In this document: in pieces, positions 1 through 20,699 of the stretch
Layout of the letters: each line of letters starts with the position of its first letter
How positions within the stretch are numbered: the first letter of the stretch is position 1
Virus record (IMG/VR): IMGVR_UViG_3300007559_000026
Location: 1 to 22,360 of that record
Origin: a virus
Length of the DNA: 22,360 nt
Reading direction: 5' to 3' (one strand)
Position numbers and translations under genes: made by a program
The notes under the pieces: model-generated
What the model was told of the DNA's origin: nothing
Databases searched by the model: none
Seen by the model: only the letters and a program-made list of their open reading frames with translations

Positions 1-214
1 CTGTTTGCCACAGATGTGCATAATCTGGCTGATCAATTACTATTGAGTCTGATAAAAAGCTAAAATCTGGATTTTCGTGTCTATGTCCGTAATCTCCGGA
101 AAGTAAAACTACTAGTTTACCTTTTTGATTTACTTTTTTTAATGACCAGTGTAGTAACTTTATCTGCCATGCTTGGTATTCACACCGACTAGTTCCAACA
201 ACAATATAGTCCAT
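1..214 (-). CDS. Partial glycosyltransferase-like protein (hydroxyproline/serine O-glycosyltransferase type), 3' end beyond window
   Basis: An open frame starts with ATG at 212-214 and runs without a stop to the window edge, giving the first 71 residues. Its start lies three bases after the stop of the prolyl hydroxylase gene, so the two are probably co-transcribed. The visible part begins with a short beta-strand-like stretch (IVVGTS), then C11, Y13 and the pair W16-Q17, then a helix-like LLHWSLKKV segment, and an LLSGD stretch at 37-41. This order (Thr/Ser, Cys, Tyr-x-x-Trp-Gln, helix, LLS) resembles the start of the catalytic domain of plant and algal hydroxyproline O-arabinosyltransferases and peptidyl-serine galactosyltransferases. 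The match is from memory and rests on one third or less of a protein. The pairing with a prolyl hydroxylase supports it. It could instead be another sugar- or nucleotide-related enzyme. Confidence 0.6.
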   Translation of the reverse strand, partial: MDYIVVGTSRCEYQAWQIKLLHWSLKKVNQKGKLVVLLSGDYGHRHENPDFSFLSDSIVIDQPDYAHLWQT

Positions 215-217
215 TTA

Positions 218-1468
218 TTAAGGTACAAATTTATAATCTGCTAATGTATAATGTAAGAAGAAGTTTCTAAAGTATTCACCTTCGAAAGGTTCAATTCGGC
301 CATGCTTATTAGTAGCAGACTCATATAAAATCATTTCTCCTACATCTGCATAAACTTTATGCCATCTTCCTAAATGGTCTTGTATATCTATAGGCCAATC
401 TCTATCTACTTCTTTATCTACTATAACAATAGAAGAAATATGATGAGTAGTAAATGTATCTGTATGAGGTACTAAGATAGAACCTCTTTTATATGACCTA
501 ATTCCATAAATCCACTTAGGGATTAATTTTTCTTTATGTCCTATAAATTCTTCGTGGAGTGGTTGCAATTCTTCTGAGATAATCTCTCTTATACGAGTAA
601 AAGCATCCATACTAAATATTTCAACTGGAGCATTACCTTGGTTGTCATGTATGAAATTTGTAATACCGTCCCAGTTTTCGTCTTTAACAGTGTGTTTTAG
701 TAAGCTATATGCTTCATTTATAAGTTGAAAGGTTTTTTCAGGTACTTTAACTACCTTGAACCCTAATTCCGTTAACTTTGGCAAATCTTCTTTTTTAGAA
801 AATGTTTTTTCTACTAGTTTTACCGGTAATGCCATTTCTAAGTATTCTTTCGCTAATTTAGCGTCTTCCGCACTATTAAATACATTTTCTCTAAACCACT
901 TAGTTATAATAACCTTTTTACCTTTTATAATAGGTAGTCCTGCGTGAAGTGCTGCTGGATTTTCACTTCCTGTACCGTCTGAGTTCTTCCAAACTACTGC
1001 TGTACCTTTTACTGGGGTAATAGTTTTCTGTAGTACTGAAAAATCAGTCTCCCCTCCTTCTTCGACATTATTTAAGTATACCATAAATGTCCAAGTTCTT
1101 TGGCCACTTGATAAACAGTGGTTATGGTATGCGTCTTTGCCAAAAGCGTCCTGGTGGTGCCTGAATTCTTGACCTACTTCGTAAATCTGTCCTTGAGTTG
1201 GTTCTGAGTAAGAGGCTTCTATTCCTAACTCTGTATACATCTTCTGGTTTACTTGACTTACAACCGGTTCAGTGTCGAGTAGAACTGCTGTAGAACTAGT
1301 ACGACCTTCGTTGTAAATAATAGACTGTGCTCCGGTACCGGCTACGCTTGATCGAGTACTTCCAGTCTCTGTTAACCTTACAATATGGTCACATTCTTCG
1401 TTAGTTAAAAACTGCGGTATAGTAAACATTTCCAATCCATGGCTGTTCTCTATGTATATTCTTTCCAT
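218..1468 (-). CDS. Double 2-oxoglutarate/Fe(II) oxygenase: prolyl 4-hydroxylase domain fused to a second dioxygenase domain
   Basis: This 416-residue protein carries two dioxygenase domains. The first (about 12-195) is a clear prolyl 4-hydroxylase: RTSS at 56-59, the iron-binding H105-x-D107, distal histidine H175 in LHAGLP, and the 2-oxoglutarate lysine K185, ten residues after H175 as usual in this family. It should hydroxylate prolines in proteins or peptides using O2 and 2-oxoglutarate. The second domain (about 240-410) has its own H335-T-D337, a WPIDI strand at 358-362, and a distal KHGR (H389), with arginine (R391 or R401) as a candidate 2-oxoglutarate ligand. It looks like a catalytically competent dioxygenase of unknown substrate. 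The two domains are joined by a mostly helical linker. There is no signal peptide. The gene follows nrdA by 14 bases and precedes a glycosyltransferase-like gene by 3. The P4H call is strong; the substrate is unknown. Confidence 0.92.
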   Translation of the reverse strand: MERIYIENSHGLEMFTIPQFLTNEECDHIVRLTETGSTRSSVAGTGAQSIIYNEGRTSSTAVLLDTEPVVSQVNQKMYTELGIEASYSEPTQGQIYEVGQEFRHHQDAFGKDAYHNHCLSSGQRTWTFMVYLNNVEEGGETDFSVLQKTITPVKGTAVVWKNSDGTGSENPAALHAGLPIIKGKKVIITKWFRENVFNSAEDAKLAKEYLEMALPVKLVEKTFSKKEDLPKLTELGFKVVKVPEKTFQLINEAYSLLKHTVKDENWDGITNFIHDNQGNAPVEIFSMDAFTRIREIISEELQPLHEEFIGHKEKLIPKWIYGIRSYKRGSILVPHTDTFTTHHISSIVIVDKEVDRDWPIDIQDHLGRWHKVYADVGEMILYESATNKHGRIEPFEGEYFRNFFLHYTLADYKFVP

Positions 1469-8596: not shown

Positions 8597-9063
8597 CAAT
8601 TCTCCAACTCTACGATCTTAAATAATTTGGTATTTACTCTTTTTAATTCCGGACCCTTCGTTAATAGAATACAGTTTTTGTAGTCCGTCCAGTTAATTTT
8701 AAAAGTAGTATCTAATACTCCGTTATTAAGTTCCTTAATTAGTGTGTTGAGAGCGTTAATCGTATACAGGGTATTTGCTTCTTTCTTTCGATGTACTAAA
8801 ATAGTATTATCGATAAAATTAGAAACATTACCAAAATCTACATTATAGGTGCAGATATACTCGTCTTGACTTTTAGAATACAAAACGAATATTTTATTAT
8901 AGATAATTCTATATTTTTGTACTATATTTTCTAATGTCGCCTCTAGTTCCTCTCCTGTAGAGAAGGTGCAAAACAGCTTATTACTCATATCCTCAGTTAA
9001 ATATATTTGATCGATATCGTAATCGAATCGATGTTGAGACATAACATTTTCCATTGTGTACAT
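8596..9063 (-). CDS. Hypothetical protein in the replication module, between polymerase and gp32
   Basis: I do not recognise this 155-residue protein. It is acidic to neutral, rich in Asn, Thr, Ile and Leu, and looks soluble, with no signal peptide or membrane segment. The C-terminal half (about 95-150, containing NTLYTINALN and a TDYKNCILLT stretch) looks the more structured. The start is doubtful: the first ATG (9061-9063) overlaps the promoter-like octamer at 9063-9070, so translation more probably begins at Met4 (9052-9054) or Met8 (9040-9042). In T4 the small regulators and loaders gp33 and gp59 lie next to gene 32, so a replication- or transcription-linked role is possible, but nothing in the sequence shows it. 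It is 17 bases downstream of the polymerase gene's end. Confidence 0.85.
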   Translation of the reverse strand: MYTMENVMSQHRFDYDIDQIYLTEDMSNKLFCTFSTGEELEATLENIVQKYRIIYNKIFVLYSKSQDEYICTYNVDFGNVSNFIDNTILVHRKKEANTLYTINALNTLIKELNNGVLDTTFKINWTDYKNCILLTKGPELKRVNTKLFKIVELEN

Positions 9064-9070
9064 ATAAATA
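9063..9070 (-). promoter_or_regulatory. TATTTATA octamer overlapping the first ATG of the 155-residue gene
   Basis: The coding strand reads AATATTTATATGTACACAATG between the polymerase stop and the 155-residue gene. The last base of the octamer is the A of the first ATG, which argues that translation begins further in. It is the only copy of the octamer in the replication module. Confidence 0.4.
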
Positions 9071-9080
9071 TTAAAAGGTT

Positions 9081-10403
9081 TTACAAAACCAGGTTTTCAG
9101 ATGTTTTTATTTTAACTGGGTATTTTTTATTTTCACTTAGTATCAAAGCTAATTCATTTATTATATGTTCTCCATCTTCTTTAGCATAATCAAATAATAT
9201 TGCGTCGTAAGTATAGAGAGCTATTTTTGTTTTCTTATTTCTAAGATACTTTAGCACTTCTTTTAAGATAAGAACATTTCTTGCAGTTTCCAACGATTGC
9301 ATGATATAATTCATAAGTTTCTGCGGATGCATTTCCTTAAGGTGCTTATTAAAAGGTTTGTTACTTATAGGAGTTCTTACTACCCCCTTAGAGAACTCAT
9401 CCCATAACCGGTCTATGTACTTAGTTAGTTTCACAAATATCTCTAAGTTCTTATATCCATCTGGTATTCTCCCGTATATAGCCTGAAAGTTAATTTGTTT
9501 TGCTTGAGCGTATTCTTCTTCTGTTAAGTCTTCTTTACCGAAGTAGTATTTACCTAAGGCTTTGTGGGCTGATTCACCTTCTATTTTAAAGTCGATTTGT
9601 TCTGATAATAGTCTTAAATGGTACCCGTCAAAGTCAAATTCAACAAAACAATCGTGCTGTGGTATAATAGCTTTTCTAAACTCTTCTCCTTTAGGTATAG
9701 CTGCGAAGTTTACACTATTAAAAGCGTTAGTAGGTCTTGACGTACTATTGTAAAGGTTGTAATACGTGTATGTAATATTATCCTTTATATTATACTTAGG
9801 TGTATTTGGTTTAAATAAGTCTATAAAAGGTTGGTATACTACTCGAAGTCCGTGTTGTTCTAGTAAGTAAAATACCTTAACAGCAACATCGTTATAGAAC
9901 TTAAAGGTATCTTCTTTAGGTTCTTCTATATACTTTTCTATTGCATCAAATACCCTTTCACTTTGTTCGTGTAATTTAGATAAAGGTATTATCTGATTAA
10001 TATTATCAAAGTCTTTAAATTTGTTATAGAACCAGTTTATTGTTGATATTTTACTTGGAAGTTCTATTTTATCGTAGTACCAGAATGCTCTCCATAAGTT
10101 TATATCTATTACATCTACAAGTGGAAAGTGGTAAAGCAGGTTTTTCTTATCTAATACATAAATCCTTTTGTATGCTTTTAAGAGGTCAAAAGCTTCTTCC
10201 TTACTAACATTTAAACCTTCATCATGGTTTATAGGTATAATGTAACCTCCTGAGTCATCTAGGGGTCTTATGTAGATTGCTACGGTTGTTGTAAATTTAG
10301 GATGGAAGTAATCATTAGATGAAATTACATCTACGTAGACATCAATATCCGGGTAACTACGGAGCCTATCAAGCTGCTGTTTATTTTCTACTATATAAAA
10401 CAT
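9081..10403 (-). CDS. Miniature family A DNA polymerase with degenerate exonuclease domain
   Basis: The 440-residue protein has the palm and fingers of DNA polymerase I. By eye alignment, motif A is D257-F-D-G-Y-H262-L-R264, motif B is K302-xxx-F306-xxx-Y310-G, Q369 matches Klenow Q849, and motif C is Y399-D400-A401, so both catalytic aspartates (705 and 882 in Klenow) remain. Unusual points: Klenow E710 is replaced by H262, R754 by Y298, and the HDE of motif C by YDA. The stretch between GLRVV (185-189) and the STSRPT region (220-225), which holds the thumb in Klenow, is only about 30 residues. The N-terminal 165 residues look like a 3'-5' exonuclease remnant, with D25 kept but its partner glutamate lost (DVI for DxE). 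There is no 5' nuclease domain; that is the separate gene at 5638-6660. A shorter or split polymerase is known from Rhodothermus phage RM378. Confidence 0.82.
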   Translation of the reverse strand: MFYIVENKQQLDRLRSYPDIDVYVDVISSNDYFHPKFTTTVAIYIRPLDDSGGYIIPINHDEGLNVSKEEAFDLLKAYKRIYVLDKKNLLYHFPLVDVIDINLWRAFWYYDKIELPSKISTINWFYNKFKDFDNINQIIPLSKLHEQSERVFDAIEKYIEEPKEDTFKFYNDVAVKVFYLLEQHGLRVVYQPFIDLFKPNTPKYNIKDNITYTYYNLYNSTSRPTNAFNSVNFAAIPKGEEFRKAIIPQHDCFVEFDFDGYHLRLLSEQIDFKIEGESAHKALGKYYFGKEDLTEEEYAQAKQINFQAIYGRIPDGYKNLEIFVKLTKYIDRLWDEFSKGVVRTPISNKPFNKHLKEMHPQKLMNYIMQSLETARNVLILKEVLKYLRNKKTKIALYTYDAILFDYAKEDGEHIINELALILSENKKYPVKIKTSENLVL

Positions 10404-10452
10404 TTCTTATAACCTTTTACTTAATATACGAACTAATCTGTTAAGATCAAAC

Positions 10453-11610
10453 TTAACATTGCTTAATGTCGTAAAGTTTTCCTTCCCTATCAATCTTTGC
10501 AGTATAGTCACCGTATCCCTCTACACGAATAGTGTAGTAGAGTTCGTAAGATTCTGGTGATTGTATCTTTGGGTTTAGGTTTGGTATTCTCCTAATTGGT
10601 AAGTATTTGTTTCCCTTAACAGCGTTTTTAGTTCTGTAGTAGTAAATGTCTTTCTTAGGATTTCCTTCCTCATCTAATAAAGGACCTTCTTGGTTGTAAA
10701 TCTTCATACTAATCGCATTAAACGAACCACATGATCTTTCAGCACTAGGGTTACCGACTTGTGCTTGATACCATGTTAGGGATTTAGCATATGCTGATGT
10801 TGAATCGGCACTTTGTGATCCTTCAGTTGCTGCAGTTTCTCCTGCGGTTACTTCTGATTGAGGCAATTCAGGAAGAGGGGGTAATTGTTCTTCTTCAAAT
10901 ACTTTTTTAGTTACAGAAGATACGACGTTAGCACCATTTTTTTCAATAGTTGTAACTTCATTCTTTTCTTTCTTCAATAGTTTAAATTTAGAAGAATCTT
11001 CTATAACAAATTGTTTTAAATCAGAAAGAAATTCTGTCATACCTGGTATAACTTCCTCCGCTTGTGATACAACGTCTCTATTCCTAGCTACTGCTCCGGG
11101 GTATGTATATCCATTAACCTTCTCATCTTCGGAGGGTCCTAAGAGGTTCCACTCTAACTTAGTTCTTCTATAGTATCCTTTATCTGCTATACTTTTATAT
11201 GTCTCTGATGTTATTTCTTTTATTTCTCCGTTTCTTACATCTTGTAGAAAGTACCTTCTAAAAGTTCCTTGTATGTAGTCATCTTCTACCGGTTTAGCAT
11301 AGTAAAACTGCTCTGTTGATTTATTTTTTAAACCAGGGGGTACCATACTGTACGCAGGATTCGAACCTACGTTTTCAAACAACTTAATAGCTTTGGAGAA
11401 ATTTCCAGTTTTTAAATCTTCAAAAGCCATCTTATATTTTCCACCCCAAGATGTTACGACTGCTACAGTATCTTGCACAGGTTGGTTTAGTATATCAACG
11501 TACTTAGAGTATTCGTTCATTGCTTCTCCTGTACCGGGATTCTGTCCAATAGCTTCTATTATATACTGAGAACCTGGTACGTAGCCTGTTATATCGCTTA
11601 AGCTTGCCAT
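10453..11610 (-). CDS. Hypothetical protein downstream of the baseplate hub, probably structural
   Basis: I do not recognise this 385-residue protein. The N-terminal 60 residues look helical and Gly/Pro-punctuated; the middle (about 100-190) is charged. A low-complexity linker rich in Glu, Pro, Thr and Ser follows (about 235-275, including EEEQLPPLPELPQ). The last 80 residues look beta-rich, with many Tyr and an IRVEGYGDYTAKIDREGKL stretch, and the chain ends in cysteine. Two cysteines are present (one near 295, one at the end). It starts two bases after the hub stop codon, so it is co-translated with baseplate genes, and it is the last gene before the replication module. A baseplate accessory or hub-spike role is the simplest guess from position only. 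Confidence 0.85.
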   Translation of the reverse strand: MASLSDITGYVPGSQYIIEAIGQNPGTGEAMNEYSKYVDILNQPVQDTVAVVTSWGGKYKMAFEDLKTGNFSKAIKLFENVGSNPAYSMVPPGLKNKSTEQFYYAKPVEDDYIQGTFRRYFLQDVRNGEIKEITSETYKSIADKGYYRRTKLEWNLLGPSEDEKVNGYTYPGAVARNRDVVSQAEEVIPGMTEFLSDLKQFVIEDSSKFKLLKKEKNEVTTIEKNGANVVSSVTKKVFEEEQLPPLPELPQSEVTAGETAATEGSQSADSTSAYAKSLTWYQAQVGNPSAERSCGSFNAISMKIYNQEGPLLDEEGNPKKDIYYYRTKNAVKGNKYLPIRRIPNLNPKIQSPESYELYYTIRVEGYGDYTAKIDREGKLYDIKQC

Positions 11611-11611
11611 T

Positions 11612-14600
11612 TTATAGTGTTATATCTTTATCTTTTAATAATGTATAAGCGAAGGTGTTCCTCTTAGTCTTTTTCTGACTTTTTCCAACTAATTCCATTA
11701 GTCTTCTATGTTGAGATGCGTCAGCAAATACTTGACATCCTGCAGACCAGTTGTCAACAGTCTTAGTTGCAGCATCACCGTACTCACCTGAGTTATGTAG
11801 CTGCATACCGCCTCCATCTTCAAAAAGACCTGCAGTTGTTCCATGTGTTCCTCTAGGAGTAACTGCTAAATCAATCCAGTTATCTTTATATTCTTTATCT
11901 CTATATGATGTTTGACCTTTTAATGAAACTAACGCAGGATGGGGGCTTTTACTGTGTGAACTATGTTTACCTGTTGTGTATTGGTTTAAAAATTGTTTTT
12001 CAAACAAAGTTCCCGTTCCATTTGCGTTCCATGAATTCTTTCCGCTTTTTGCATCTTTTGCTTTTTGAGCTTTAAATTTTTCATTCTCACCTAAAGTCCA
12101 TCCTGCTCCAGGTACTGTAGTAGCAGGGTAGCTTTCTGCAAACTGTTGTCCATTTTCAACCCAAGCTACAATTACTATATCTTTAAATTTATTAGTAATC
12201 GGATGTAACACTCCTCTACCTGTAGGATTAGAAGGAATCTGTCCTGAAGTATTTCTTACTCCTACTATATTTAATTCTAACTCACCCGCAAACCAAGTAT
12301 ACCCTTTTTTCTGAACAGCTGCCATTACGTTAGCGTATTTAACGTTTTTACCTAAAGCAGTTTGATTTTGGAGCTTATCTGTTCCACCTTCTGTAGATGG
12401 TGATCCATCTTCGTTTGCAGGAGGTTGTTCTTGTTTAACAACAGAACCTGCTGTTGCAGAACCAGCACCAGATAATAGTGTAGAAGATCCTCCTGATAGT
12501 TTTGTAAGGTTGTACATTAAGGCACCTACTTCAGTTGTCCATCCATTATCCCCTACCGTATGGTCTACTTTTATAACTATGAATCCAATAGAGCCGTTAC
12601 CGTAGACCTGTGGGAGTATTTTAGATGTATTCTCAGATAGCTTAAAAGTTTCTCCTATTTTAAAACCACCGATTCCATGTAATTTAAAAGATAACTCTAC
12701 CGGTATAGTACCCGGTGGTGGTATATTTTCTGCTTGGCATGTAGCGAGAGCAAATTTTGACTGATAGGTCTGGTGTCCGGATAAAAGTCCTTTAAATAAA
12801 TCTGGGTCATATTGTTGATCTGTAAACAACTCTGTTCCGTTAAATTTTTCAAATGCTTCTACCACTCTATCTCTCCACTCCCCAAAAGTTTTTAAATCTT
12901 CTTTAGCTTTTGCCTCTGCAGCGGCTGCTGCTGCTGCTTTATCTTTTGCTGCTTGTTGGAGTTCTTGTGGTGTTTGAGGACCAGGGTCTTCTTTAATAGG
13001 GAAAACACGATCATAATGTCCTCTATTCCATAGAAGCATTTCCTTAACGTCTTGTTTAGTGCCGGTACCGGATGCTTGGGCAGCAATAGAAATTTGGCTT
13101 GCTAATTTATTAGTTATCTTTGACTCTGTTTTAAAGTCATAAGCAAAAGAACCTAAACCGACTAAGTCTAACTCTGTTACTTGATCTTTTTCACTTGCTG
13201 GTGGTATTTTACATTTTCTATCTACAATCGACCATTCGTTTAGTTCTTCGTCGTAATCTAAATCTAATTCATTAATACCGCCTAATGCTTCATTTACTCC
13301 TCCTAGTATTGCTTTAAAGATATCTAATAACCCTGGTTCATTTTCTGATTCTTGATCACTATCGTATATTTCATCTAATTTTTCATAAAGGTACATATTA
13401 GATACACATATACTCAATACATCATCAGAAGGAAGATTAGCTCCACTGCCTGCAAAGTAGGTTGTTAGTTTTTGATGTAACAATTTTTCAGCAGGTTTTG
13501 ATTCAAATAACCCATTAGTAGCGGCTACGTTATTTGGTAAGACGCAAACAAACGGATTAATACTACCGTGTTGCTTATGTGTAAAATACTTATTTTTTTG
13601 TTTTGTATTTATGGTAAATGATCTCTGTCCTTTTCCTTCATGCATAATACTCGCTGAGTTTATCACACTACAGACTGTACGTAGAGACATGTAAATGAAT
13701 ACCGTATTTTTATCAAAAAAGCTATCAGGTTGTTTAATATCAAATCCAGGAGCACACCATACCTCTAATTCACTTGGGGTCAATACTCCCGCAAAACCAG
13801 GTGTGGAATTTTTTAGAGCGTCTACACACGCGTCTCCGGCGAACTCTCCTTCTTGGCTGTTTAGTTCTAACCTTTTACTAAAGTAGTGTAATGGGCTTTT
13901 TCTTTCTGATTTATCAAGGTTTCCTTTTTGTAAAGCTTCAACATCTTTTTCTGTAAAGCCCGGATCGAAAGAAGATTTAATAGACTCTATAACTTCACCT
14001 TTTGAAATTAAGTATACGGTTGTATCATAAGAGCCGTCTGCATTAAACGACCAACTAAAGTTTTTACATATCGCAAGCATACCGTCGTAATTGTACCCGG
14101 AGGCTTCTCGGCATTTTGTTATTGCGTCTTGTATAGATTTATAGGTAGCTCCTGAAGAAAGAAATGCTTCTTTAGCAGCAGTCTGTTTTACTGTTAGGGT
14201 CGAACCTTCCTCTTTACTGTAAACTGAATGTCCCCACTCTAATAAAAAACTAAAACCGGGTCGGCAATATAAGTCATAAATTATATTGAAATCATCTCTA
14301 TTAAAAGCTTTTATAGTAACCTCTACATCTCGTAAAGCACCAAAAGTACCTTTTGTTTTAATCTGCACTCCGGTAATTCCTGGTCTAGGTGTAAACCCTC
14401 TACCGTCTTCGCTTTTTGCATGATAACCCTTAGGTGTATTGGGGTAATCATCTTTAAAAGCTAAACCACCGTCGAGATGCCAAGGACTTGTTAAATCGGT
14501 AGGGTAGCCGCTACCTTCTACACTAGAATATAGGCTGATAAAAGCACTATTGCCGTGCAGTAAAGAATTACCTCCTTCTCCGAAATTTTTGGATTTTAAA

Positions 14601-17021: not shown

Positions 17022-20000
17022 TTATGTATTGGTTGCTGATTGTTGTAGAGAGTTATTTACTCTTCTACTATCCATATTAATATTTTTACCTTGTTTAACT
17101 GCAATTATCAATTCATCGATTTTTGCAATTAACTTATCATTACTTTCTGATTTTCCTCCTTCAGATTCTCCACCACCGGTAATACCTGATACAAAATCTC
17201 CTATTGCTCCTACGGCTGCTATTGCAGGTGCTGCAAAAGCTGCTGTTTTAATAAGTGATTGCATCTCCTCTAACTTTTCAGTCTCTAGTGTAGCTAAAGC
17301 AGCTCCGATGCCTCCTAATGCTGCGGCTATCATTGTTAATGAACCTGCTACTGATTGTAACGGTCCTGCCATGGCTGTTAAGTTCTGTAGATCTTCTATA
17401 ATTCCTCCACCTGTAAATAATGAAGTAAGTCCTGACATTAAACTTCCACCTGCTAAAGCAGCAGCAAAGAATGCTAATCCTCCAGCAGCTGCCATTAAAC
17501 CTATTCCAGCCATAATTAAACCAGGTCCCATTACAGCTAACATTGAAAGTTTATCTACTACTCCTTGTATATCTGCTCCAGCCATTATACCAAATGCTGC
17601 TGCGGCAGGTATTAAAGCTAAACCTAATACTGCTAATGCAGCGGCTCCAGCCATTATAAATGGAGCTACAAGTCCTAGCCCTGCTGTAGCTAATGCTAAT
17701 AAAGGTAACGCAATTGAGAATGCAATTATTGAACCTGTATCTACTCCTTTTAGTAAACTGAAAGCATATGCAGCTGGTATTAATGCTAGTGCTAATATCC
17801 CTATTGCGAATGCTCCAGCTATTACCATCGGTCCTGTCATTCCCATAAGGGCGGCAGCTGCTCCTAAAGCTATTAAACTTCCTGTCATAGCCATTATCGA
17901 CATTGGATCTACTGATCCTAAAAGGCTAAAAGCGTAAGCCGCTGGTATTAAAGCTAATGCTAATATACCTAAAGCTAGAGCTCCCATTATTATCTGTCCT
18001 CCTAAATTACCCATTAAAGCGGCGGCAATACCTAAAGCTATTAAACTCCCTGATAAAGCTAACACTGACATTGGATCTACACCTGCCATAAGGCTAAATG
18101 CGTATGCTGCCGGTATCAAGGCAACCCCAGCTATACCCATTGCAATAGCTCCTTTAATTGCGTCATTTCCTAACTTACCTACTAATGCTAACGATGCTCC
18201 AAAGATTCCTATAGATGTAGCAAATGCTAACATAGAAACCGGATCAACACCGTCCACCATTTTGAGAGCTAATGCAAATGAACCGCCTAAAGCTAGACCG
18301 GCAATTCCTATAGCTAATGCACCTTTTACTACATCACCAAATTGTTTACCAATTGATGCTAATCCATCACCTAATGATTTTAAAAATCCTCCCGGTCCTT
18401 CTCCTTCTGCACCTTTAGTCTTACCGGCTAAATCTCCTGTTTGAGCTGCAGCTTTACCTGTCATACCATTTTTTGCTTTACCAGCTACGTCTGCGGCTTT
18501 ATCCGCCCCTGGTGCTTTAGCGAATCTACCTTTTGCATCTCTAAACCTACCTGCAGCGTCTTTTGTTACGTCTGCACCTTTATCTTTTACCGTGTCAGCT
18601 AATTTACCTGCTCCTGACATTCCTCCTTTAAAAGCGTCTTTAATCCCTGATCCCCAGCTCTTAACTGAGTCCATCATTCCACTAAAAGAGAATTTCATTC
18701 CTTTTAATGAGTCCATGAACTTCATAGCTCCTGATGTTGCGGACCCAAAGAAACTTGCTATCTTACCTGCAGCCATTACAGCTACAATACCTATAATTAA
18801 AGGTTTTATAATACCTAATGTATCTAAAAACTTAACAGCATATCCTACAATACCTCCTAGTATTTGAATAGCGGGGGCTATAATACCGACAATATCTCCT
18901 ATTATACTTAAAAGAGGTGCAAATGCTTGTGCAAGTTTATCAACAGATTTTTGAAGCTGTTCTTGTATTTCTGCTCTTTTCATATCTTCAGCTCTAACTC
19001 CAGCGGCTGCTTCAGCCTGCTCTTCTGTCATTCCTGCTTCAATTGCTTTCTGATATGCTATCTTTCCTAATTCATCTCTAGTCATACCTAATGCAGCGGC
19101 ATAAGACTCTTGTTGAATACGGTTCATTTTACCGAATTCGTTAATATCTGCTGCATTTTTAAATAACTCATTTCCTAATCCAGCTAAGTCGTTATTTAAA
19201 GCTAACTCTCTAGCTTTGTTTAGGTTTAAATCTTTTCCTATTAATAACTCAGTTTCCATTTCTTTTGAAATAGAATCTTCAAAATCTAAAAGGGAACTTG
19301 CTATTTTATCTATCTGCCCTAACTCCATTCCAAGTCTACGGGCTGCAGATGCGGCTTTGGCAAGAGCGGCAGGATTTCCTCCTAAAGAGGCTTTAATACC
19401 GTCTGATGCTTTTGCTACATCTTTTAAGACTTGATTTTGATTAACTGCAGATCTATTTGCTTTATTAAAGGCACTTGTCTGATCTACTATACTATCGACT
19501 GTTTTATCGATATCGCCGCTAGTAGTCTGGGCCATTATTGCAAGACCTCCTGCTTCGTCAGCAGCAAGTCCCATTGTATTTTTTAATTCAGCTGCTCCTG
19601 CTATAACTTGAGGTGAGAATATGTTTTGAGCACTCATACCAGTCTGCTTTGTAAGCTCAGCTATTGTCTGTAGGTAGTCTACCGAAGTAGCATATCTAAA
19701 GTTTGCTCCTGCTATTGCATCTGAATTCTGACCTGTTAATCGTTGTACTTCTGTGCTTGCTTTATCTACTTTAAAGAAAGCGTCTACTATCTTCAATATT
19801 ATAGATAAAGGATCTAATAATGCTGCTCCAAAACCTTTTGCTAGAGGCCCTAAGCCTGACATTAATACTGATAATTTACCGCCTTTTTGTGCTCCGGATT
19901 GAATTGCTGTAGCAGTATCCTTCATCCTATCTTTAGCTTCTTTAACAGCATCGCCGAATCTTCCACCGCTGATTCCTAACTTCCCCATCAACCCTTCCAT

Positions 20001-20699
20001 TCCACCTATAACCGCGCCTCCAACTCCTAAGAGTTTATTAACTTCTTTTTGCTTTTCTTTTACTTCTTCTATCTTTCCTGCAATACTACTAATTGCACTT
20101 CCTTGATCTATGTAGTTAGATAAAGCTGCTTTTTGTTCTGCGGTAAGGTTCTCCGCCATGTTAACCATGTCTAGTGCAAGATCTAAGTTACCTCCCATAA
20201 GGTTCCCTACTCCGCCTAATTCCTCTATAAACTCTTGAATCTGCTTTACATTATTTTGAGCAGCTTCTGATAAATCCTCTCCGTTAAGTAGCCTTTGCGA
20301 TTCATCATCAAGTATCTTTTTATTATCTTTTAGTCTTTGAGCTAAGTCGTCTAACTGTTTTACAGATAGATCCCTTATACCCTGTTCTTCCATTTTAAGT
20401 TCTTCTGCAATAGAGGTTATTTTTTTCATAGAGCCTCTAATCTTCTGCAATGCCCCTGGCTGGTTTTTAAATTCCGAAGAGATTGCTCTTACTTGATCAT
20501 AAAGACTTGTTGCAGTATTATCAATTTCACCGAATTGGGATTGTACCCCTCTCAGTTCATTGCGCAAACTTTGCATATTTTGTACAGCATCAGCTGGCGT
20601 TAAGGTTAACGGTTGCTGATTCATTCTAGCTCTCAAGGTATTAATCTCTTGTAAGAGTCTTCTTGCTTCTTCTAACTGTGTATTATCGTTTGCGGCCAT
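17022..20699 (-). CDS. Tail tape measure protein
   Basis: This is the longest protein of the window (1225 residues) and sits between tail assembly and baseplate genes, as tape measures do. Residues 1-225 are charged, coiled-coil-like helices (many Glu, Gln, Lys). A globular alpha-helical region follows (about 310-590). A hydrophobic stretch at 595-650 could cross a membrane. Residues 685-765 are rich in Lys, Ala, Gly and Asp and look flexible. Residues 788-1067 are five in-phase 56-residue hydrophobic repeats, described separately. The C-terminus is a Gly/Ser linker and a short amphipathic helix. If fully helical, 1225 residues at 0.15 nm each would set an upper tail length near 180 nm. T4 gp29 is only about 590 residues. 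The start follows TCCAGTAAATG, with no clear Shine-Dalgarno sequence. Confidence 0.92.
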   Translation of the reverse strand: MAANDNTQLEEARRLLQEINTLRARMNQQPLTLTPADAVQNMQSLRNELRGVQSQFGEIDNTATSLYDQVRAISSEFKNQPGALQKIRGSMKKITSIAEELKMEEQGIRDLSVKQLDDLAQRLKDNKKILDDESQRLLNGEDLSEAAQNNVKQIQEFIEELGGVGNLMGGNLDLALDMVNMAENLTAEQKAALSNYIDQGSAISSIAGKIEEVKEKQKEVNKLLGVGGAVIGGMEGLMGKLGISGGRFGDAVKEAKDRMKDTATAIQSGAQKGGKLSVLMSGLGPLAKGFGAALLDPLSIILKIVDAFFKVDKASTEVQRLTGQNSDAIAGANFRYATSVDYLQTIAELTKQTGMSAQNIFSPQVIAGAAELKNTMGLAADEAGGLAIMAQTTSGDIDKTVDSIVDQTSAFNKANRSAVNQNQVLKDVAKASDGIKASLGGNPAALAKAASAARRLGMELGQIDKIASSLLDFEDSISKEMETELLIGKDLNLNKARELALNNDLAGLGNELFKNAADINEFGKMNRIQQESYAAALGMTRDELGKIAYQKAIEAGMTEEQAEAAAGVRAEDMKRAEIQEQLQKSVDKLAQAFAPLLSIIGDIVGIIAPAIQILGGIVGYAVKFLDTLGIIKPLIIGIVAVMAAGKIASFFGSATSGAMKFMDSLKGMKFSFSGMMDSVKSWGSGIKDAFKGGMSGAGKLADTVKDKGADVTKDAAGRFRDAKGRFAKAPGADKAADVAGKAKNGMTGKAAAQTGDLAGKTKGAEGEGPGGFLKSLGDGLASIGKQFGDVVKGALAIGIAGLALGGSFALALKMVDGVDPVSMLAFATSIGIFGASLALVGKLGNDAIKGAIAMGIAGVALIPAAYAFSLMAGVDPMSVLALSGSLIALGIAAALMGNLGGQIIMGALALGILALALIPAAYAFSLLGSVDPMSIMAMTGSLIALGAAAALMGMTGPMVIAGAFAIGILALALIPAAYAFSLLKGVDTGSIIAFSIALPLLALATAGLGLVAPFIMAGAAALAVLGLALIPAAAAFGIMAGADIQGVVDKLSMLAVMGPGLIMAGIGLMAAAGGLAFFAAALAGGSLMSGLTSLFTGGGIIEDLQNLTAMAGPLQSVAGSLTMIAAALGGIGAALATLETEKLEEMQSLIKTAAFAAPAIAAVGAIGDFVSGITGGGESEGGKSESNDKLIAKIDELIIAVKQGKNINMDSRRVNNSLQQSATNT
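17499..18338 (-). repeat. Five tandem 56-residue (168-base) repeats inside the tape measure gene
   Basis: Units cover residues 788-843, 844-899, 900-955, 956-1011 and 1012-1067 of the tape measure, each exactly 56 residues. A shared core runs: small residue plus hydrophobic helix (GALAIGIA), then in units 2-5 ALIPAA(Y/A)AF, a G(V/A)D turn, and a second hydrophobic helix. Units 2 and 3 are the most alike; units 1 and 5 have diverged most. The pattern suggests two helices per unit, hydrophobic enough to insert in a membrane. Confidence 0.85.

Follow-up and report, generated by a model that had tools for sequence, protein, structure and literature searches.

A phage operon predicted to hydroxylate and glycosylate proline-rich repeat proteins in a group of aquatic bacteriophages

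From their gene content, certain aquatic bacteriophages seem to have their own machinery for proline hydroxylation and sugar-chain synthesis, akin to that of plants and slime moulds. An operon begins at the end of the window (the whole stretch of 22,360 bases analysed here), and its enzymes probably put hydroxyl, sugar and carbamoyl groups on mucin-like proteins that the phage itself encodes. This reading draws on gene order, gene families, catalytic residues, conservation and the co-occurrence with repeat proteins, that is, on sequence and prediction from metagenomic contigs, to which the window itself contributes the hydroxylase and 71 codons of the transferase. Hydroxyproline-linked glycans occur in plants, algae and some protists, and we found no prior report of hydroxyproline glycosylation in bacteriophages in the open-access literature (subscription journals were outside the scope of the search). 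If the reading is true, this chemistry, familiar from eukaryotes, would reach as far as bacterial viruses, and one phage operon would unite a hydroxylase, transferases, an epimerase that makes a donor, enzymes that decorate the sugars, and candidate substrates.

The sequence-only reading had described a prolyl 4-hydroxylase (P4H) followed three bases later by a transferase gene, and both open reading frames are present as described. They lie on the minus strand downstream of ribonucleotide reductase genes and are separated by positions 215-217. Because the window is 99.9% identical over its whole extent to positions 24115-1756 of G004, a 33-kb contig from practically the same phage, G004 supplies the missing part of the cut transferase gene, which has 917 codons there and in eleven further distinct full-length proteins. 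Families of the G004 operon genes were assigned on G004 or on sister contigs, and the features are as follows.

Window 218-1468, minus strand: two-domain 2OG-Fe(II) oxygenase, 416 aa, with a predicted prolyl 4-hydroxylase at the N terminus and a second oxygenase-like domain after it
Window 833-1468, minus strand: predicted P4H domain, residues 1-212, with H105-x-D107, H175 and K185
Window 221-793, minus strand: second 2OG-oxygenase-like domain, residues 226-416, with H335-x-D337 and H389-G-R391
Window 2-214, minus strand: transferase start, 71 aa, open at the window end (first 71 of 917 residues)
G004 23902-26655: complete transferase, 917 aa, with HPAT-like (hydroxyproline-O-arabinosyltransferase-like, 1-290), O-FucT (protein O-fucosyltransferase, 298-587) and GT60 (about 634-900) domains
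G004 26657-28201, outside the window: first NodU-type carbamoyltransferase
G004 28203-29027, outside the window: PF03407 transferase
G004 29030-29935, outside the window: second GT60, a separate gene (PF11397 1.4e-45, 157 bits against a cut-off of 21)
G004 29932-31503, outside the window: second NodU-type carbamoyltransferase
G004 31508-32479, outside the window: GDP-mannose-3,5-epimerase
G004 32517-33183, outside the window: first 222 codons of a protein with proline-rich relatives

The 416-aa oxygenase matches PF13640 (2OG-FeII_Oxy_3; 2.7e-16), the PHROGs families phrog_61 (8.6e-26) and phrog_2954 (1.4e-17) and, in a profile search, solved prolyl 4-hydroxylases (7e-41). Residues 17-197 match solved P4Hs of Bacillus (5iax, 1.6e-24), human (C-P4H alpha2, 8.7e-19) and Chlamydomonas (3e-18). 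The AlphaFold model shows confident domains (pLDDT 86.8) whose mutual arrangement is uncertain (pTM 0.50), and its best Foldseek match is 3gze, an algal P4H with a (Ser-Pro)5 peptide (E 4e-17, TM 0.80 of target). The DSBH fold, the HxD...H iron ligands and a Lys at +10 from the distal His are all found, and H105, D107, H175 and K185 are the same in all of 21 relatives, the most distant at 38% identity; by analogy with known P4Hs, these would be the expected Fe(II) and 2-oxoglutarate ligands. Both sequence and model point to the N-terminal domain as a predicted prolyl 4-hydroxylase. A second domain of the hydroxylase, 2OG-oxygenase-like and spanning residues about 226-416, had escaped the sequence-only reading. 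Its H335-x-D337 and H389-G-R391 are invariant in the 21 relatives, and its homologues form stand-alone genes of 176-203 aa, with HxD and distal His kept, in cassettes that lack the P4H domain. Four PHROG families named ferrochelatase or DNA endonuclease (phrog_2954, phrog_3531, phrog_2297 and phrog_274) also match 2OG-oxygenase domains here and are probably misnamed.

The 71-residue transferase fragment alone gave nothing of use in Pfam and PHROGs searches and no tblastn match among cultured phages, and an Rfam search of the window returned none. In these 71 residues the sequence-only reading had pointed to the order Cys, Tyr-x-x-Trp-Gln, helix and Leu-Leu-Ser of plant and algal HPATs and serine galactosyltransferases. 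It is present (C11, Y13-x-x-W16-Q17, the helix and L37-L38-S39), and among 23 relatives Y13, Q14 and Q17 are invariant and W16 and L37 nearly so, but the Cys is not conserved. The signature is more than chance, because PF23452 (HPAT) matches 20 of the 23 relatives of the N-terminal domain at E up to 10 (best 2.6e-13), two of them, L113 and L115, at 36 bits and thus above the curated cut-off of 23.9; the near-identical copy in the window's species reaches 18.2 bits, below that cut-off. By these profile matches the N-terminal domain is predicted to be HPAT-related. A search for HPAT in 395 Bacteroidota genomes gave no match, even in G019, which has a known relative, and this negative therefore carries no information.

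The full-length protein agrees with the earlier proposal of a glycosyltransferase. Its N-terminal domain is modelled as a GT-A fold (pLDDT 87, pTM 0.87), and the best PDB matches are GT6/GT8 enzymes, for example LgtC and glycogenin; no HPAT was seen among the PDB matches, so that the fold is likened to GT6/GT8 and not to a solved HPAT. The DxD-type metal-binding motif of this domain, D106-P-D108, is invariant in the 23 relatives, and catalytic residues are thus kept in both the transferase and the hydroxylase. The O-FucT domain follows (PF10250 E 3e-25, 90 bits against a cut-off of 31.5), with a match to POFUT2 (3e-4) and with the HxRRxDF motif as H480-I-R-R-N-D-F, invariant among relatives except I481. 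The GT60 domain completes the chain (PF11397 E 2e-37, 130 bits against a cut-off of 21).

Scanning IMG/VR yielded 57 loci, comprising relatives down to 37-39% identity and a 26% group with only the O-FucT domain. A 2OG oxygenase is present at 58 of 60 loci with an O-FucT-type transferase, within 150 bases at 47 of them, in line with the expectation that the pair is conserved in relatives. The two genes are kept together at 38-64% identity across lineages, often overlapping or abutting, and every lineage with sufficient flank, except L129, has a 2OG oxygenase in its cassette. The PF13640 P4H domain is missing from L097, L102, L104, L112 and L120; these five lineages have in its place a small 2OG oxygenase of the second-domain type, in which HxD and the distal His are kept. 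In the 64% identical lineage L088-L093, oxygenase and transferase are kept and a proline-rich gene is not in view. Other cassette neighbours include a double FkbM-type methyltransferase (L111 6272-7477) and a DUF5672 protein (L088 12749-13441). In L128, a contig that binning assigned to an uncultured Bacteroidetes cell, regions 1917-2396 and 8715-14599 together encode an oxygenase, a 1532-aa transferase and, 6 kb from these two, a protein of 159 aa that has (SPTV)n repeats and, by eye, a twin-arginine-like signal; this is possibly a cellular version of the hydroxylation/glycosylation system.

The gene order of the operon is common to G001, G002, G003 and G004, with the PF03407 gene in some only; PF03407 is the Pfam family of the plant Hyp-arabinoside extenders. 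The NodU-type carbamoyltransferases carry the domains Carbam_trans_N (PF16861, 3.5e-62) and Carbam_trans_C (PF02543, 1.2e-17). The epimerase matches Arabidopsis GDP-mannose-3,5-epimerase (2c59) over its full length at 1e-97, and the next family, UDP-glucuronate decarboxylase, follows at 1.9e-26. Since the plant epimerase makes GDP-L-galactose, a close analogue of GDP-L-fucose, it is plausible that the phage enzyme provides a donor for the O-FucT domain. A third NodU-type carbamoyltransferase lies away from the operon in G001 (L048 11949-13628), and in the jumbo Xanthomonas phage XacN1 (AP018399.1 219791-223508, L045) a GT60 gene directly precedes a carbamoyltransferase gene, which gives the pair another genomic context.

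The operon ends with long proline-rich proteins of APTAAPVTPSPT-type repeats that resemble plant arabinogalactan proteins (AGPs). They stand directly after the epimerase in G001 (966, 257 and 251 aa), in G002 (875, 257 and 247 aa, with one 71-aa gene between) and in G003, and the start of one is seen in G004; example repeats from G001 and G002 are APTAAPVTPSPTAEPTAAPVTPAPVTPAP. Proline makes up 27-30% of the repeat cores, and 88-95% of the core prolines are preceded by Ala, Ser, Thr or Val. Pro-Pro is nearly absent overall (0 observed in the largest repeat protein against 46 expected by shuffling), an avoidance that may reflect translation rather than glycosylation. In sequence, such clustered, non-contiguous prolines after Ala, Ser, Thr or Val match the plant arabinogalactan-protein pattern. 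A PHROGs search found no match for the repeat proteins in the window's clade, and no collagen-like Gly-X-Y substrates were flagged among the listed genes of G001.

Across several divergent lineages of phage, the repeat genes are concentrated around the cassette. In G001 and G002 the only AGP-like genes are those directly after the epimerase. Across loci, AGP-like genes number 13 among the 124 genes that lie no more than 8 kb from the cassette, against 2 of 863 elsewhere (P = 9e-11, Fisher's exact test), and with one genome per lineage the counts are 8 of 79 and 2 of 360 (P = 3e-5). Similarly, 10 of 18 distant lineages have an AGP-like gene in the fetched locus, compared with 16 of 80 control loci (P = 0.006), where the controls were picked for such repeats, among the matches listed, by an unspecific DNA-pattern reverse scan; at those 16 loci proline/threonine-rich repeat proteins are present with no cassette in view. 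The four clearest repeat loci of that scan have a cassette in none of their short flanks, and 8 of the 18 distant lineages, including L088-L093, show no repeat gene above threshold in the fetched flank, some loci being short. An Ala/Ser/Thr-rich repeat protein is seen in L088 (4505-5938), fully visible in L043/L111, and is a possible alternative substrate in the L088-L093 lineage.

The target had been guessed to be a tail fibre, the capsid or a host protein, and the adjoining proline/threonine-rich repeat proteins narrow this choice. L120 has the repeats within a virion structural protein (phrog_14478, 2e-114), whose gene lies 20 bases upstream of the oxygenase, in the order structural repeat protein, oxygenase, O-FucT, carbamoyltransferase. 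Judged by gene context, this protein is the best evidence that virion proteins may be the targets. In L115 and L116 the P4H itself adjoins repeat proteins. The cyanophage S-SCSM1, cultured on Synechococcus, encodes a 2603-aa, presumably structural protein with a long (RP)n stretch (23462-31273), a possible hydroxylation target.

The pathway first suggested, with a hydroxylase and a glycosyltransferase in one operon, gains support from the GT-A, O-FucT and GT60 domains, the kept motifs and the conserved oxygenase-transferase pair, and none of the three refuting outcomes named with it was seen. In the proposed pathway, the P4H domain would hydroxylate prolines in the [A/S/T/V]-Pro repeats of the proteins encoded at the operon end, and the second 2OG domain would perform a further hydroxylation. 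The three-domain transferase and the second GT60 would attach and extend sugars on hydroxyproline, perhaps also on Thr/Ser: the HPAT-like domain may add the first or a branch sugar, GT60 alpha-GlcNAc, and the O-FucT domain L-fucose or L-galactose, the latter from GDP-L-galactose made by the phage GDP-mannose-3,5-epimerase. The NodU-type carbamoyltransferases would carbamoylate the sugars, and virion appendages would thereby gain a rigid brush of dense glycans, which may serve in attachment, as a shield or as a spacer. The substrates, the hydroxylated residue, the order of steps, the sugars, the virion location in the window's clade and the benefit are what we infer here. That phages own a complete hydroxyproline-O-glycosylation pathway, which puts carbamoylated branched glycans on mucin- or arabinogalactan-like virion proteins, could be the case, and we advance it tentatively.

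The nearest rival is a mucin-type glycosylation in which Thr/Ser of the repeats would receive the sugars and hydroxylation would have a side role, the oxygenases acting on a sugar, on Lys, or on Pro only for stiffness. The repeats are equally rich in Thr/Ser and in Pro, Ser/Thr are the acceptors of PF10250 enzymes such as POFUT2, and transferase and repeats are kept in the lineages without a P4H domain. The Trypanosoma GT60 enzyme of polypeptide GlcNAc-transferase type acts on Thr. Membership of this enzyme in GT60 (PMC6939170) also speaks for Thr/Ser as acceptors. However, the HPAT-like domain and the fixed P4H neighbourhood point to hydroxyproline, and the near-constant presence of some 2OG oxygenase in the cassette, L129 being the single exception among sufficiently flanked lineages, likewise speaks against it; we regard the mucin-type explanation as unlikely.

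Three further explanations fit less well. The genes might alter polysaccharides on the host surface, for instance to keep competing phages out, with the hydroxylase acting elsewhere. S-SCSM1 has a cluster with O-FucT, 2OG oxygenases, a carbamoyltransferase, GDP-sugar enzymes and many transferases, which its authors read as cell-wall genes (PMC9602691). Nevertheless, O-FucT, HPAT and GT60 are protein glycosyltransferase families, prolyl hydroxylases are not known to take part in polysaccharide synthesis, and the cassette is tightly linked to proline-rich proteins, so that polysaccharide remodelling seems improbable. The hydroxylase could also modify a host protein such as EF-Tu, which bacterial P4Hs bind or modify (PDB 5v7y, 4iw3), for translation tuning or oxygen sensing, with the transferase in a separate function; the persistence of the often overlapping or abutting pair across lineages and the repeat proteins beside the P4H in L115 and L116 make this quite improbable. 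Finally, the oxygenase, glycosyltransferase and carbamoyltransferase might build a modified DNA base, as known phages carry TET-type oxygenases and carbamoyltransferases that act on modified cytosines; we set this aside as barely credible, since no Tet_JBP domain matched in 11 records, the oxygenase is of P4H type, the transferase families act on proteins, and base modification could be served separately by the 7-deazaguanine-type genes of G001 and G002. The latter, homologues of FolE, QueE, QueD and QueC (G001, L048 7717-8427, 10236-11018, 11030-11491 and 17017-17856; also visible in G002), are probably a 7-deazaguanine pathway for DNA base modification apart from the operon.

Hydroxyproline glycosylation of phage repeat proteins, as preferred here, can be compared with several known systems. 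To our knowledge, the prolyl hydroxylase of chlorovirus PBCV-1 stands alone, with no linked hydroxyproline transferases. Plants glycosylate hydroxyproline with P4H, HPAT/GT95 and the related GT96 (PMC8012813). The plant pathway for hydroxyproline-rich glycoproteins (P4H; HPAT/GT95 and SGT/GT96; GT77 extension; arabinogalactan proteins and extensins) has an HPAT domain, to which that of the phage operon is predicted to be related; the P4H fold is shared too, the best structural match being the algal 3gze with its Ser-Pro peptide, as are the optional PF03407 transferase and the non-contiguous [A/S/T/V]-Pro repeat substrates. In contrast to the plant pathway, the phage enzymes are soluble and fused, O-FucT and GT60 are in the same chain, carbamoyltransferases are present and there is no secretory pathway. 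In Toxoplasma and Dictyostelium, Skp1 is hydroxylated by PhyA and then modified by the GT60 enzyme Gnt1 (PMC6939170); this system (PhyA, Gnt1/GT60, PgtA) resembles the predicted phage pathway in cytoplasmic prolyl hydroxylation before GT60 and in a multi-domain transferase, whereas it serves a single site and oxygen sensing and the phage has dense repeats and HPAT-like and O-FucT domains.

Among viruses, the closest precedent is mimivirus L230, by which lysines of viral collagen peptides are hydroxylated and glucosylated (PMC9614988). Virus-encoded hydroxylation and glycosylation of a viral repeat protein, there the collagen-like L71, would be common to both, but the mimivirus case concerns lysine, collagen and a eukaryotic virus, and the predicted one proline, AGP-like repeats and bacteriophages. 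The PBCV-1 enzyme vCPH (5c5t) is, like the phage enzyme, a viral prolyl 4-hydroxylase, with 28-30% identity to the oxygenase in structural alignment. S-SCSM1 shares with the window's operon a 2OG oxygenase, an O-FucT and a second 2OG oxygenase in a row (the last with about 35% identity to the second domain of the window's oxygenase), followed by carbamoyltransferase and GDP-sugar genes; it differs in having split genes, in that no HPAT or GT60 was found, and in that its RPRP-type repeats are in an unlinked large protein. The phage operon also bears on the origin of the HPAT- and GT60-type enzymes, which may have spread by gene transfers in which the phage pathway had a part.

Two minor observations concern reading frames. 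Frame breaks occur within the 917-aa gene in three contigs (L015/L041, L014/L026 and L017/L039), possibly as assembly errors or real decay. A 302-aa open frame on the plus strand (17029-17937), antisense to a 1225-aa gene (window 17022-20699), is interpreted as a shadow ORF arising from the Ala/Gly-rich coding strand.
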